From contig MKVF01000006.1 in NCBI GenBank assembly GCA_001899145.1, positions 186,001-250,000 of the forward strand: 64,000 bases of DNA. Direction: 5' to 3'. Of the stretch, positions 32,724 to 46,017 are shown in pieces; the stretch's first letter is position 1, and each line of letters starts with the position of its first letter. The position numbers and the translations under genes are program-made. Origin of the DNA: Flavobacteriia bacterium 40-80. Lineage in GTDB: Bacteria; Bacteroidota; Bacteroidia; Flavobacteriales_D; Crocinitomicaceae. The notes below the pieces were generated by a model, which had not been told where the DNA came from, made no database searches, and saw nothing but the letters and a program-made list of their open reading frames with translations.

Positions 32724-33737
32724 ATGGAAAGAGCACTGTACAACATTGATAACAACTTATTGGAAAACATTAAGCACATTGTTCTTAATGCAAGAAAAAA
32801 TGTATCTCAAAAAGTAAATCAAGAGCTTATCTTAACTTATTGGCAGATCGGGAAAGAAATTGTAGAAACAGAGCAGAAAAACAACATCGATAATCAGACA
32901 TCAAGACAAATCATACTTCATCTTTCCAGACAGCTAACCAACGAAGTCGGAAAAGGATTTTCCCGTTCCAATTTATTCAATATGAGAAAATTTTATATTG
33001 AATATCCAAATGTCCAGTCAGTGACTGGACACCTGACCTGGACACACATTTGCGAGCTTTTGATCATTGAAGATAAAGACAAACGCAGTTTTTATGAAAA
33101 AGAAAGTGCCAATGCTTCATGGTCTATCAGAGAACTTAAAAGACAAATAGACAGCTCGCTTTATGAGCGTTTATTGCTTTCAAAAGGAAAAACCAATAAA
33201 GAAAAAGTCCTGGAGCTGGCACAAAAAGGACAGGAACTCAACAAAGCAGAAGACGTATTGAAAAACCCTTACGTTTTTGAATTTTTGGGTATTCCCGAAA
33301 ACAAACCGATTTTAGAAAAGGATTTGGAAGCCAAACTTATCCGTCATATTGAAGACTTTTTGCTGGAGCTTGGTAAAGGCTTTATGTTTGTCGGTTCACA
33401 ACAACGGATAACTATAAATAACACGCATTACTACGTGGATATGGTTTTCTACAACAAAATTTTACGTTGTTATATTCTTATTGAGCTTAAAACCACAAAA
33501 CTTAATATTGCAGACGGAGGCCAATTGAATACCTATTTGAACTATTACAAAACAGAAGTGAATGATGAAACCGACAATCCGCCAATCGGAATAATTTTAT
33601 GTGCAGAGAAAGACGAAATTACAGCAGAATATATTTTAAGCGGATTTGAGAATAACGTATTTGCTTCAAAATATGTAACTATTCTTCCGGACAAAGAAAA
33701 GTTAATTGAAGAAGTGGAAAACGTAATGAACAAATAA
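32724..33737 (+). CDS. YhcG-type PD-(D/E)XK nuclease (DUF1016)
   Basis: A 337-residue protein with an N-terminal DUF1016_N helical domain (about 10-150: ELILTYWQIGKEIVE, GKGFSRSNLFNMRKFY, LTWTHICELL) and a C-terminal PD-(D/E)XK nuclease domain with Asp239 (YYVDMVFY) and Glu254-Lys256 (LIELKTT). Family members occur beside restriction-modification and other mobile defence loci. No methyltransferase or specificity subunit is adjacent here, so it is an orphan. Base composition is slightly A/T-richer than its neighbours. Confidence 0.88.
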   Translation: MERALYNIDNNLLENIKHIVLNARKNVSQKVNQELILTYWQIGKEIVETEQKNNIDNQTSRQIILHLSRQLTNEVGKGFSRSNLFNMRKFYIEYPNVQSVTGHLTWTHICELLIIEDKDKRSFYEKESANASWSIRELKRQIDSSLYERLLLSKGKTNKEKVLELAQKGQELNKAEDVLKNPYVFEFLGIPENKPILEKDLEAKLIRHIEDFLLELGKGFMFVGSQQRITINNTHYYVDMVFYNKILRCYILIELKTTKLNIADGGQLNTYLNYYKTEVNDETDNPPIGIILCAEKDEITAEYILSGFENNVFASKYVTILPDKEKLIEEVENVMNK

Positions 33738-35340: not shown

Positions 35341-35490
35341 ATGTTGATCTTACAAAACATTTCATATACACATCCCAACAAGGAACTACTGTTCAGTGAT
35401 ATCAACCTGACAGTAAATAAGCACGAAAAAACAGCGTTAATCGGCAACAACGGACGTATTGTGTCTTATTTATTTTTCATCTTAAAATAA
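35341..35490 (+). pseudogene. ABC-F gene truncated inside Walker A
   Basis: An ATG at 35341 opens 49 codons. The first 38 or so residues read as an ABC-F N-terminus: MLILQNISYTHPNKELLFSD, then an ALIGNNG stretch (residues 32-38). The motif GNNG-x-GKST should follow, but after GNNG (ending 35454) the sequence switches to RIVSYLFF... and stops at 35490. Those last codons are the antisense of the 3' end of the SIR2 gene. The rest of the ABC-F gene is nowhere in the window. This is a broken gene whose break marks the edge of the SIR2 module at about 35455. Confidence 0.82.
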
Positions 35491-38400
35491 ATACTCACCA
35501 ATACATCATCTTTGCTTTCAATCAAACATTTTTCTAATTTAGTTGTGATGTAACCTATTTTTGAAAACCTTTTAAAAAACACTTTATCATTGAACTTTTT
35601 TAACCAATTTACATCAAATAAATCTGAATTAAAGTTCTCTGGGTCAATTATAAACTTCAAAATATCAGATTCAAGGGTATATTCTTTTAACTTTTTGCGC
35701 CCGAAATCAGAAAAATCACTTGAATATAACAAATAAAAGTAATCGAAAACAGGCTCTAATTGATAGCGATTTGCCTCATTATTGACGCTCTTAATTGTGT
35801 CATGAATTGTATTAATATATTTTTTACGTAATTTAGGTTCAACAGGAACCTTTTTTAGTAACATTCTATTAATTACTTTCATCTGAAAGTTTTTATTTAA
35901 TTCGATATTTAGCCTTTTTAAAAAATCTGCTTGTTTGTCCTTATCCAGAGAGTGATATATAATTGGTACATGAAAAGGATCTGTATTTTTGTAATCTATA
36001 ACACTTAAATCAATATCTTTATTTATATATTTCGGGTTCCTCTTAGATGTGAAATATAGAATATCAATATATAATTGATTAAAAACTCTTTTTGAATTTA
36101 ATATCTCTAAAGAAGCTTCGATTGATTCAATTGTCAAAAGAGAATTCTTTTCATTATAAAATTCAATCCAAAAATTATAATCTCTGAAAATATTACTACT
36201 ATAGATATTTGTGAATTTGAAAAACTCATTGATGTTTAAATATATCTCTTGTAGTTGATTTTGGTCAAATTTAAAATAAGCAATTACAGTACAAATGTTT
36301 TGAAATTGACGCTCAAATTTAGTTCTGAAATTAGGATTAATCTTCAGATAATTTATAAAATGATTATTTTCAAAATTTTTACCCCAAAAAGAATTAATTT
36401 CATATGTACATTTAAAGAAATTATTAATTATTACAACGATTTTCTTTTGACTTTCAACGTCTATTTCTATATCTCGCAATCCACTCTGTTTTATAAAGAT
36501 TTGCAATTCAGCAGGCTTGTCGAAGTCAATAATTTCCTTAATTAGAAAAGAATTAAATTTTTCCAATTTTGAAATACCAGAAAATCTTTTTTGGAAGTCA
36601 GTCAAATCAACATCTTTTAAAGAATAACCCAACAGAAAGGCTTTAATGGACTTCTCTTTATTGTATGCAATATTTGAAAATCCATTTCCTAAAATGAAAT
36701 TTCTACTTAAAAAGCGATTTAACTGGCCAATAATATTGTATAAGTTTGAATAATTTGAATTTTGAAAACTTCCGCCTTTTTTAGCGGATTCTATATCTTT
36801 TAATACCTTTCCATGTATATCATCCATATAATTACATAGCCATTGAATATAGACACCGTCTTTAACATTCTTTAAAAATTCAAGCTGTGATTCATCTACG
36901 TAATATTTAGTATTTGAAATTGCTTTTTCTAAATCTATTTTATCAGCTTTACTTTTTAAAGCTTCTAATTCATGTTTAGTAAATCTTGTATCAAAATTGG
37001 GAAATCGATTTAAGTTGATTTTTAACCTTTTTAAATTAAACTTACAGATGAAAGCAAGATCCATTTGTTTAAGCTTGTTGGCTTTTAATTCGATTTCTTC
37101 AAAAGCAATATAAGATTTGTAAAATTCTCCCATTTGATAAAGAACATAAGCATAAGACATATCTTCTTCAAAGTTCGAATTCTCCGTTATCCTATAAATC
37201 TCTATTCGCTCTATTATTTCCGCATATTTTAAAGCGTCATAAGAGCATTGAAAACAATCACATGAATTATTATTTGGATAATACTTATCATACAAAGCTA
37301 TTCTTTTAGTCTCTTCTGTTTTCCAATTAACTTGATTTGGATTCTTCTCCACATATTGAACTCCAGAATGTAATAAAGTAGATATTATATAATTTAATTT
37401 CGTTTTTTCGTCGTCTTTAAATGACTCATCTTCTTTTCCTTTATATTTATCAAGCAAATCGAACAATTCATAATTATCAATTGTCAAATCAGTAGTATCA
37501 AAACTATAATATGCACTTTCTCCTTTATTCGATTTTATTGGATATAGTCTTACCAAAATATGTTTTGGAATGATTCGATAATAGTCAAATCGTTTTAAAG
37601 AGGTATATAAATCATCAATCAATTTTGATTCCTGAGAAACTGAATCTATTTTGTTACGTTTATGTTCGAATGAATCAAAATCACGGATGTAAGATAATTG
37701 TTGATAAACCTTATTTCCAGTAGCTGAAAGTTTTTTGTGCTCTTCTATGTTTTTCAAAGCTTTATCAGAATAATTAATCACATTTATCCCTAAATTCTTA
37801 AAATAATCTATTTCGCTTTTGGATGTATCGTTACGATGGTTTAATAGATAAGTTCTCTGGTGATGTTTTTGTAAAATGTGTTGAATATCTCTTATTAATA
37901 TTTTTAAATTGACATCTCCTACGCCATAACCAATAAAAAGGATAATCTTGTTACTAAATAGAGATTTTACAAAGGTTTCCTTTAATGTATTGTTTTGAGA
38001 AAATTCTAAATAATCGGTTTCTTTAAAGACGATGTTTTTATTTTCAAAATCACCATGATACTTAATAATTAAATTGTTATGCTCTGCGTAGGGCAAATCC
38101 ACATCTTTTGAAACAATTGAGAAAGGTAATCCTTTATTATCTACTACATTTTCAAAGTAATTATCATAATTTGTTGTAATTATATGTTGAGGCTCTAGCT
38201 CAAGAATTAATTCATGTAGTGGATTATATTGTTTGGCATTTTTAAACAAAGTCTTTTTTACAATATCATTGTACTCTTTTTCTCCCTTTTCATTGTAGAG
38301 CATTTGTGCTATTTTCAAAGAATCGTTTTCATCAGTCGGTTCATTTAGATAACCTTTCACTTCTGTAACTAGTTCATTCCAAAGAGGAATCCCTGAATCT

Positions 38401-38495
38401 TTAGAAATCCCAGCACCAGCAAATACAACTAATCTATTATTTTTTATGGCTTCATTTATTATGGAAACCTGATTGTCAAATGTTCTTTTATCCAT
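35466..38495 (-). CDS. SIR2-domain large defence-type protein
   Basis: A 1009-residue protein. Residues 1-250 are a SIR2-type domain: AGAGISKDSGIP (26-37) for NAD binding, TTNYD (107-111, Asn109), KYHGD (145-149, His147, the expected catalytic His) and FIGYGVGD (187-194). Residues 250-1009 are mostly helical with a CDCFQC motif (412-417) and repeated TPR-like helices after it. Length and layout resemble the antiphage NADase DSR2. The gene is strikingly A/T-rich. It follows a small nuclease-like gene by 4 bp and its 3' end abuts the broken ABC-F gene. Inferred role: abortive-infection NAD depletion. Confidence 0.85.
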   Translation of the reverse strand: MDKRTFDNQVSIINEAIKNNRLVVFAGAGISKDSGIPLWNELVTEVKGYLNEPTDENDSLKIAQMLYNEKGEKEYNDIVKKTLFKNAKQYNPLHELILELEPQHIITTNYDNYFENVVDNKGLPFSIVSKDVDLPYAEHNNLIIKYHGDFENKNIVFKETDYLEFSQNNTLKETFVKSLFSNKIILFIGYGVGDVNLKILIRDIQHILQKHHQRTYLLNHRNDTSKSEIDYFKNLGINVINYSDKALKNIEEHKKLSATGNKVYQQLSYIRDFDSFEHKRNKIDSVSQESKLIDDLYTSLKRFDYYRIIPKHILVRLYPIKSNKGESAYYSFDTTDLTIDNYELFDLLDKYKGKEDESFKDDEKTKLNYIISTLLHSGVQYVEKNPNQVNWKTEETKRIALYDKYYPNNNSCDCFQCSYDALKYAEIIERIEIYRITENSNFEEDMSYAYVLYQMGEFYKSYIAFEEIELKANKLKQMDLAFICKFNLKRLKINLNRFPNFDTRFTKHELEALKSKADKIDLEKAISNTKYYVDESQLEFLKNVKDGVYIQWLCNYMDDIHGKVLKDIESAKKGGSFQNSNYSNLYNIIGQLNRFLSRNFILGNGFSNIAYNKEKSIKAFLLGYSLKDVDLTDFQKRFSGISKLEKFNSFLIKEIIDFDKPAELQIFIKQSGLRDIEIDVESQKKIVVIINNFFKCTYEINSFWGKNFENNHFINYLKINPNFRTKFERQFQNICTVIAYFKFDQNQLQEIYLNINEFFKFTNIYSSNIFRDYNFWIEFYNEKNSLLTIESIEASLEILNSKRVFNQLYIDILYFTSKRNPKYINKDIDLSVIDYKNTDPFHVPIIYHSLDKDKQADFLKRLNIELNKNFQMKVINRMLLKKVPVEPKLRKKYINTIHDTIKSVNNEANRYQLEPVFDYFYLLYSSDFSDFGRKKLKEYTLESDILKFIIDPENFNSDLFDVNWLKKFNDKVFFKRFSKIGYITTKLEKCLIESKDDVLVSIYFKMKNK

Positions 38496-38499
38496 TTCT

Positions 38500-38961
38500 T
38501 TATAATATCGGAACCTTATCTAAATTTTCTTTTGAACGGTTCAATTCTTTTAGTTTTGTTACAGAAAGACGATAGTTATATTGTCTTTCTGATGGCAAAT
38601 GCGAGAGCAGTTTATTGTATATTAAAGTTCCGCTACCGTTATAAATTTCTTCAAATGTACCATCTTGATAAAGGTTTACAGCTATAAAATAGAGAGGAAT
38701 TTCATCTAAGTTTTTTGTAAAATAAAAGTAATTGTTAAATGATGCTTTTATTTGTACTTCTTTATCAGGAGATAAGGTTACATATCCATCGTGTGTACGC
38801 GTATTATCATGGTATAGTGTTAGTCCATACTTTTCAGCTACAAGAACTTCTCCAATATCACCTACCAATTTACCATCTAAAGTAAATTTTTTGTTATGGT
38901 GCTTAAACTTGTCTTGAAGTTTTGAAATTGTAGCAAACAAAATCGTTAATTCTTCCTTCAT
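38500..38961 (-). CDS. Small DUF6998-like protein with PD-(D/E)XK-type residues
   Basis: A 153-residue protein placed first in the SIR2 operon (4 bp gap). Residues GDIGEVLVAEKYG (34-46, Glu38), THDGY (57-60, Asp58) and VQIKAS (69-74, Gln70-x-Lys72) match the E...D...(Q/E)xK spacing of restriction-endonuclease-like folds; I associate it with the DUF6998 family from memory, without a search. The N-terminal helix resembles a short coiled coil. Likely roles are recognition or cleavage of foreign nucleic acid, or regulation of the SIR2 effector. A/T-rich like its partner. Confidence 0.7.
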   Translation of the reverse strand: MKEELTILFATISKLQDKFKHHNKKFTLDGKLVGDIGEVLVAEKYGLTLYHDNTRTHDGYVTLSPDKEVQIKASFNNYFYFTKNLDEIPLYFIAVNLYQDGTFEEIYNGSGTLIYNKLLSHLPSERQYNYRLSVTKLKELNRSKENLDKVPIL

Positions 38962-38995: not shown

Positions 38996-39024
38996 CAAAT
39001 ATAACCATTTTCCCAATATTTCAA
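38996..39024 (-). promoter_or_regulatory. Promoter of the SIR2 module
   Basis: On the minus strand: TTG at 39024-39022, 18-nt spacer, TATATTTG at 39003-38996. Exact consensus in both elements, 34 nt before the ATG at 38961. The module carries its own Bacteroidota promoter. Confidence 0.65.
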
Positions 39025-43949: not shown

Positions 43950-44687
43950 TTATTTCAACGCTACCCTTACTTTACTTTTTTTTAACCCTTTTCTTTGTTC
44001 TGAAATTAATTTAGGCAGTTTAATATTTAAAAAATCTTCAAATTGTTTCTCCGAAACAAATTTAAAAATTGACTCTGTTAATAGATAAACTTTTGTCTCT
44101 AATAGTTTTGGCATTTGATTATTTGAATCAGAATCCAATTTCTTTGCATTTTCATATGCCGTGCGAATTTCATAAATAAAATTTAATGGATTATAACCAC
44201 CTTTATCAAATTCTGATATTTCAAATTTAAATTCATCACATTTTTTTGATTCTGTGGAATCAAAATTATCTTTTTTATGTAGATACAACCAAACCTCAAA
44301 ACAAGGATTACTTAAAACGACATTCCAGTTTTCTTTTTCATTGCAATATTGAATTATTTCGTGTAACTGACTTATCTCCCATTTGTCAATATCCATTACA
44401 AACCATAACTCATCTTCGTCAATCAGTCCTTCCTGTTCAACATAATGAATTGCTCTATCGAGAACCCATTTTGGAGAAGATTTTGTTTCGTGCTTGTGAA
44501 ACAACTCCTCATCTAAAACTTTCTTTTCAATTACATCAACTTTTACTCTAGTAGAAAAATGCTCAAACAATTTAAAATAGTCAGGTTCGCGTTTTCCTCC
44601 CTCACAAGCGATTGCAAATAATCTGTAATCTCTAACTAATTCTTGGGGTAACTCTCTGGAATATCCTCTCTTTTTACGACTGTTCAT
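43950..44687 (-). CDS. RloB-like protein (AbiL-type)
   Basis: A protein of about 245 residues of the RloB family, with Toprim-like fold. In the frame beginning at 44693 the family marks are ACEGGKREPDYFKLF (29-43, Glu31), LWFVMDIDKWE (96-106, Asp101 and Asp103 as metal ligands) and the SNPCFEVWLYLH segment (128-139) that identifies RloB. Second gene of a pair with the ATPase, overlapping it by about 14-20 bp. RloA/RloB are known from restriction loci and as AbiL in phage abortive infection. A basic N-terminus (RKKRGY) may bind nucleic acid. Start at ATG 44687 or 44693. Confidence 0.87.
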   Translation of the reverse strand: MNSRKKRGYSRELPQELVRDYRLFAIACEGGKREPDYFKLFEHFSTRVKVDVIEKKVLDEELFHKHETKSSPKWVLDRAIHYVEQEGLIDEDELWFVMDIDKWEISQLHEIIQYCNEKENWNVVLSNPCFEVWLYLHKKDNFDSTESKKCDEFKFEISEFDKGGYNPLNFIYEIRTAYENAKKLDSDSNNQMPKLLETKVYLLTESIFKFVSEKQFEDFLNIKLPKLISEQRKGLKKSKVRVALK

Positions 44688-46017
44688 ATTCACTCCAGTT
44701 TAATTCTTCCAAATTAGCCAAAAATGGTATACCTCCAAAACGACCTTTAAGATAACCTCTCCTAATGTCTAAATCATATCTAGGCTTAAACTCGCTTAAT
44801 GAATATAATCTTGAACACTTCATTTCACTATCTTTTTCAACAAACCAAATTTCATCTTGTCTAAAAATATCTAAATCCAATAAATTTGATTCGTGTGTTG
44901 TGAATACTAATTGACCTTTCGTTTCTGGCTCATTCATTATCTTGGATATTAAAGCTTTCAATAATGCAGGATGCAAACTTTGGTCTATTTCATCAATTAT
45001 AAAAGTCATTCTCTCATTTAAAACACCACTAAGTGCAGGAATAAAATCAAGTAATCTTTGTGTTCCATCAGACTCTTCTTCTAAATCAAAAGATACAGAA
45101 TTACCATCTTTATCAATATGTTGTGACAATAATTTTTGTACTACAATATCATCATCTTCTGTCTTAGTAATAAACAAATCACAACCTTTATAATACATTA
45201 TAATACCTTCATTATCTTCTAAATCAGATAAAATTTCCTCTTTTATATCTTCATCATCTTCACCAAAATATTTATCAAAATCAAATTCCTCTATTTTCAG
45301 CTCCTCTACTCCTGTATCAAAAGTTTTCAATAAAGAATTTGAAAAGATTTTAAATTCATCTGAAACAGAAATATGAGGTGTCAAATTTTTGTATTTACTT
45401 TGAGGATGAATAATTACAATGTTTTCTAACAAAATGCCCTTAAAGTTGGTTACTATATCAAACTTAAGTTCTGAATCCTTACTCAAAAGTAACTCATTGT
45501 TTTTAAGTAAGTTTTCTTCTAATAATTCTATAAGCAATTTATTTTTTGCTGATTTTATAAACTTAGGAGCAGTTGTAATTTTTGTTTTGCCTTTTGCGAT
45601 TGAGCTTCTATGAAAAACCAACTTATCATCTTTAATATTTCCGGTTTCATATAACCACTCTTCCAAAACAATCGTTCCATCAATTTTCACTCCATAGGAA
45701 TAAAACTTATTTTCTAAGAACAATTCAATTTCAAAAAAAACTGGTTTGGATAAGTACTCTTTATCTAATTTAAATTTCTTGCTATTAATTGAAGTTTTTA
45801 TTCCACCATTTTCAACAATAGATTTAAGATATTCAATAGCTTTAATTAAATTAGACTTACCCGCACCATTTGCACCGTAAATGGCTGCAGAACGTAATAA
45901 ATTGACCGGAAAATCATACACGTGAGACTTATGAGTTTTGAAGTTACCAGCAAACATATTAAACTCTGTTTCTTCCCTAAATGAAAGAAAGTTTTCTATT
46001 ACTATTCTTGCTAACAT
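44674..46017 (-). CDS. RloA-like AAA ATPase
   Basis: A 447-residue ABC/SMC-type ATPase of the AAA_15/AAA_21 group, opening MLARIVIENFLSFREETEFNMF, with Walker A YGANGAGKS (47-55), Walker B FIIDEIDQSLHPALLKAL and the His switch QLVFTTHESNLLD. The region between (about 170-290) is the variable substrate or partner-sensing part. With RloB it forms a two-gene defence-type module, in which the ATPase probably restrains or triggers the Toprim effector. Base composition is A/T-rich like the SIR2 module and unlike the flanking small-protein blocks. Confidence 0.88.
   Translation of the reverse strand: MLARIVIENFLSFREETEFNMFAGNFKTHKSHVYDFPVNLLRSAAIYGANGAGKSNLIKAIEYLKSIVENGGIKTSINSKKFKLDKEYLSKPVFFEIELFLENKFYSYGVKIDGTIVLEEWLYETGNIKDDKLVFHRSSIAKGKTKITTAPKFIKSAKNKLLIELLEENLLKNNELLLSKDSELKFDIVTNFKGILLENIVIIHPQSKYKNLTPHISVSDEFKIFSNSLLKTFDTGVEELKIEEFDFDKYFGEDDEDIKEEILSDLEDNEGIIMYYKGCDLFITKTEDDDIVVQKLLSQHIDKDGNSVSFDLEEESDGTQRLLDFIPALSGVLNERMTFIIDEIDQSLHPALLKALISKIMNEPETKGQLVFTTHESNLLDLDIFRQDEIWFVEKDSEMKCSRLYSLSEFKPRYDLDIRRGYLKGRFGGIPFLANLEELNWSEYEQS

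Follow-up and report, generated by a model that had tools for sequence, protein, structure and literature searches.

The window (the whole 64,000-nucleotide stretch of DNA that was analysed) carries an A/T-rich island in which two minus-strand genes lie 4 bp apart, with the gene for a small DUF6998 protein upstream of that for a large SIR2 protein (Table 1). Measured per 1 kb, the G+C content of the island is 24-29%, whereas most of the flanking 1-kb segments have 39-45%. Both open reading frames and the deviant composition had been correctly reported in the initial annotation.

Table 1. Features of the SIR2/DUF6998 island and its edge (positions in the window).
Feature	Position	Strand	Basis
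DSR2-like protein, 1009 aa: N-terminal SIR2 domain (predicted NADase) and C-terminal DSR2-type sensor module (putative)	35466..38495	-	DSR2 matches, L194
SIR2 domain, residues 11-244	37764..38465	-	phmmer to DSR2, active-site residues
C-terminal sensor module, residues 264-1009	35469..37706	-	hmmsearch boundaries, decoy control, hhalign to DSR2
CxCxxC motif of the Bacteroidota module, residues 412-417; may be a metal site	37245..37262	-	sequence
DUF6998 protein, 153 aa, predicted BisI/NhoI/Eco15I-like PD-(D/E)XK nuclease; E38, D58, Q70, K72	38500..38961	-	
Bacteroidota-type -7 promoter element TATATTTG, weak	38996..39003	-	pattern match only
ABC-F ATPase gene, 5' remnant, 38 codons, cut at island edge	35342..35455	+	

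The island starts at the cut 5' end of the ABC-F gene, the rest of which is absent elsewhere in the genome, where only paralogues were found, and its two edges do not share any exact repeat of at least 9 bp. The truncated gene next to the island would fit a decaying or non-functional acquisition, as would the failure to find a relative in 399 genomes of the bacterium's own order, where weak matches (L011, L036-L043) were rejected as chance. Yet both reading frames are intact and every catalytic residue is kept, and we regard decay as very improbable. The two genes had also been credited with a consensus promoter of their own, a claim that finds no support in that form: sigma-70-like matches are as frequent as in shuffled DNA (26 found, 27.1 expected). 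The DUF6998 start is preceded, at a distance of about 35 bp, by the -7 element TATATTTG, but an 8-mer pattern of this kind is common, occurring 71 times in the window. An AbiL-type pair at 43950-46017 (-), made of an AAA_21 ATPase (AbiLi, E 3e-85) and a RloB-like protein (AbiLii, E 2e-21), occupies another A/T-rich stretch about 5 kb from the SIR2 island, and a YhcG/DUF1016 PD-(D/E)XK protein (32724-33737, +; PADLOC PDC-S02, E 1e-130) is encoded on its opposite side.

The large protein gives a Pfam SIR2_2 match (E 3e-22) at residues 104-240, and the best match to its SIR2 domain among all solved chains is DSR2, the defence-associated sirtuin 2 of Bacillus subtilis (PDB 8k98 and others; phmmer E 9e-37). 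Residues W39, N109, D111 and H147 align with W59, N133, D135 and H171, which matter for DSR2 (PMC11087589, PMC10981675), and are conserved in the window protein, in L194 and L168 and in the Priestia orthologue of DSR2, to whose SIR2 domain that of the window protein is about 30% identical. The SIR2 residues named in the initial annotation (G27-A28-G29-I30-S31, N109 and H147) were all found, and its view that the SIR2 protein is of DSR2 size and has its NADase site intact stands. The L194 protein (1014 aa), which has GmrSD adjoining it, matches the window protein from end to end with 35% identity. Searches of genome contigs and of viral contigs with the SIR2 protein returned no relative, nor did viral scans with A2, L164 and L168; a tblastn search of plasmids with the C-terminal part gave nothing, and the plasmid matches of the whole protein are to SIR2 domains only. 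An AlphaFold model computed from the single sequence reached a pLDDT of 34 and was not used.

The initial annotation was unsure whether the system was already catalogued. PADLOC and NCBIfam recognise its SIR2 domain and nothing beyond. PADLOC gives no Dsr2 match for it, nor for the Priestia protein, the sensor of which is 51% identical to that of DSR2; consequently, this silence says little, and a working Dsr2 model seems to be missing. The Dsr1 model of NCBIfam matches residues 18-201 only, scoring 22 bits where the cut-off is 1400, rather than matching over its whole length. DSR1, SIR2-NACHT and SIR2-NB-ARC proteins are alike in having an N-terminal SIR2, whereas the C-termini of SIR2 proteins with nucleotide-binding domains differ from that of the window protein: of the two large ones tested, neither exceeded 0.6% in hhalign.

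DSR2 is a bacterial suicide protein that assembles into a head-to-head tetramer, binds the monomeric tail tube protein and depletes NAD on sensing a phage. It has the same architecture as the window protein, a SIR2 NADase followed by a long helical sensor, with the same domain order, nearly the same length (1005 against 1009 aa) and all four active-site residues matched. The likeness of the sensors, a region of about 700 residues (MID/CTD), is detectable at the profile level only: a profile of the C-terminal module (A4) matches DSR2 at residues 376-1001 (hmmsearch, E 1.6e-8). Because the module sequences are biased in composition, 400 shuffled versions were scored as a control; none exceeded 3.4 bits, whereas DSR2 scores 41 bits. 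Alignment by hhalign of nine module members with DSR2 and its Priestia orthologue scored 98.1% (E 1e-13) over almost the whole length, C-terminal end included, while the controls, DSR2 in reverse and four large proteins unrelated to it, did not exceed 0.6%. Taken together, the profile match, the shuffle control and hhalign lead us to file the window SIR2 gene, on sequence grounds, as a divergent relative of DSR2, which is a named system. Compared directly with DSR2, the C-terminal part of the window protein gives a weak and composition-biased match (phmmer, 3.8e-5), and tail-tube recognition may thus not carry over.

When residues 264-1009 of the window protein (about 745 aa) were used as the starting query for the module, the first relative found, L151/L152, had an N-terminus different from SIR2. 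A profile of two sequences led to six more genomes and one of eight sequences to further ones; in the family f16, to which genome G697 belongs, 11 of the 160 sampled genomes have the module, whole or in part. Six kinds of effector are found fused to the N-terminal side of the Bacteroidota module: SIR2 (the window, L168 and L194), DUF4365 (seven members), PIN (PIN_12, E 2e-16; L166, L193 and L195), Mrr-like (Mrr_cat, E 5e-4; L167a), MmeI_N-like (MmeI_N, E 2e-6; L167b) and SMEK (SMEK_N, E 8e-29; L192). Judging by family annotation or motif, the DUF4365, Mrr, MmeI_N and SMEK heads are likely nuclease-type, and the PIN head would be an RNase. With the PIN, Mrr, MmeI_N and L168 members left out of its training set, an HMM still recovers all of them (E 9e-32 or better), and decoy and reversed sequences give no match. 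None of the module members scanned with PADLOC and NCBIfam is named beyond its SIR2 domain. A CxCxxC motif is kept across effectors in nearly all Bacteroidota members, L167a lacking it; it is absent from DSR2 and from the Priestia orthologue of DSR2. What is new, as far as sequences tell, is this Bacteroidota module with CxCxxC joined to six effector kinds.

In a tree of the module, the window protein groups with L194 (100/100), the three SIR2 forms fall into one set with the MmeI_N and SMEK forms (97/97), and the PIN and Mrr forms pair (94/94). The SIR2 label requires at least two changes on starred branches; the number of effector exchanges is uncertain since several branches are long. Short pAgo systems offer a parallel, with a set of SIR2-APAZ, DUF4365-APAZ and SMEK-APAZ partners (PMC10810196): there too, N-terminal SIR2, DUF4365 and SMEK domains are exchanged on one recognition domain, whereas the common part here is a DSR2-type module and not APAZ or pAgo. 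Our search of open-access papers on a DSR2 sensor with other effectors returned nothing relevant. On balance, we lean towards viewing the DSR2 sensor as a phage receptor module of general use that evolution has coupled to at least six unrelated kill switches. The resulting proteins would make up a Bacteroidota family, hitherto undescribed, of abortive-infection systems that consist of one protein, with the window gene as the NADase form.

The second gene of the island encodes a DUF6998 protein (PF22522; Pfam E 8.6e-37). An AlphaFold model built from an alignment of homologues reached a pLDDT of 92.7, and Foldseek places it closest, among solved structures, to NhoI and to the N-terminal domain of Eco15I (TM about 0.5, E 3e-3, probability about 1.0), both BisI-family enzymes that cut GCNGC containing 5-methylcytosine (PMC11347163). 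The DUF6998 profile also finds Eco15I by sequence (E 9.5e-6), although identity to the BisI family is low. E38, D58, Q70 and K72, pointed out in the initial annotation, were all found; E38, D58 and K72 are invariant in 55 homologues and position 70 is Q in 37 of them and E in 18, which makes the nuclease motif more than chance. The protein would thereby display both marks of the BisI family, a predicted PD-(D/E)XK fold and a putative catalytic E/D/(E,Q)xK site. The profile alignment with Eco15I stops before the (H/R)(V/I/T/M) methyl-pocket motif of that family (PMC11347163). Of the roles proposed earlier for the small protein, nuclease, sensor or gate, the first thus agrees with the fold predicted here, whereas adjacency is the sole argument for the other two.

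The two genes had been put forward as a new conserved two-gene module, and a count of neighbourhoods had been set beforehand as the test that could refute it. DUF6998 occurs at none of the loci with relatives of the SIR2-protein module (0/15, with the full-length, 35%-identical L194 included), and the C-terminal module occurs in none of the 87 DUF6998 loci other than that of the window. DUF6998 is therefore not the usual partner of the SIR2 protein, and the two do not form a fixed pair; judged by the test set beforehand, the two-gene module is unsupported. A true two-gene system, in which DUF6998 would sense or cut phage DNA and gate the SIR2 NADase, could nevertheless be read from two genes 4 bp apart on one strand of one A/T-rich island, both with products resembling defence proteins, and in Faecalibacter a fused SIR2-pAgo is encoded two genes downstream of a 65%-identical DUF6998 gene. 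Against this stand the two counts, the finding of DUF6998 by itself, in head operons of prophages, and among changing neighbours in type I restriction-modification operons, and the description of DSR2 as needing no partner gene (PMC11087589). We consider such a system unlikely, while the 4-bp spacing leaves room for a local functional link between the two genes.

The nearest relatives of DUF6998 (65-69% identity) belong to Chryseobacterium and Faecalibacter and lie in type I restriction-modification operons, with hsdM, hsdS and hsdR as read from sequence. The neighbours in these operons vary and include a PDDEXK_4 protein, a helicase and the fused SIR2-pAgo of Faecalibacter (L068:9005-12115; SIR2_2 and Piwi, 1036 aa). 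In other settings, DUF6998 is found beside GmrSD proteins (L056) or alone among small open reading frames, and at L013-L028 it is part of the operon of head genes in Pseudomonas-type prophages, an unusual location for a nuclease. A search of open-access papers gave nothing relevant on DUF6998. The protein is probably an independently mobile BisI-like nuclease that would restrict DNA on its own or travel as a passenger on a common defence transcript.

The reading that we favour, with fair confidence, is that the SIR2 gene encodes a DSR2-type abortive-infection defence made of a single protein, belonging to a Bacteroidota branch with at least six interchangeable effectors, and that DUF6998 is a separate nuclease. 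We thus agree with the probable anti-phage role proposed at the outset, with phage sensing, its trigger, NAD depletion and the separate action of DUF6998 put forward by inference. The C-terminal module would bind, inside the cell, a phage component produced late in infection, which might, as in DSR2, be the monomeric tail tube protein. Binding would turn on the N-terminal SIR2 NADase, which would hydrolyse NAD+ until it is depleted, and the infected cell would stop before phage release. DUF6998 would meanwhile restrict DNA by itself, or simply be carried along in the shared defence transcript.

The window protein departs from DSR2 in its CxCxxC motif, in the DUF6998 gene upstream and in belonging to a branch that also has nuclease and RNase effectors. 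A DSR2-type NAD mechanism with a sensor target other than the tail tube protein, such as a nucleic acid or another virion protein, and with CxCxxC as a metal site, is a lesser but real possibility, consistent with the distance of the window sensor from DSR2 in sequence and with the retention of the motif, outside L167a, in Bacteroidota members with various effectors and its absence from DSR2. The alignment of the whole module with DSR2, C-terminal end included, argues against such a different target. DSR2 has been described as one NADase triggered by the tail tube protein; if its sensor is common to nuclease- and RNase-headed proteins, it would join NLRs and short pAgo systems as a receptor of modular build. 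Exchange of domains could then allow sensor and effector to be studied separately, and a family that current models miss would be added to the defence catalogues.

Some loci of the module family show further peculiarities. At L167:2117-7692, the sensor module is present in both of two adjacent genes, once with the Mrr-like and once with the MmeI_N-like head. The PIN-form protein at L195:6203-8996 is broken into two reading frames. Directly upstream of the DUF4365 form, L164:4109-6700 and L165:3866-6385 encode an unnamed protein of 840-860 aa, the L164 copy of which has no Pfam match above the cut-off.
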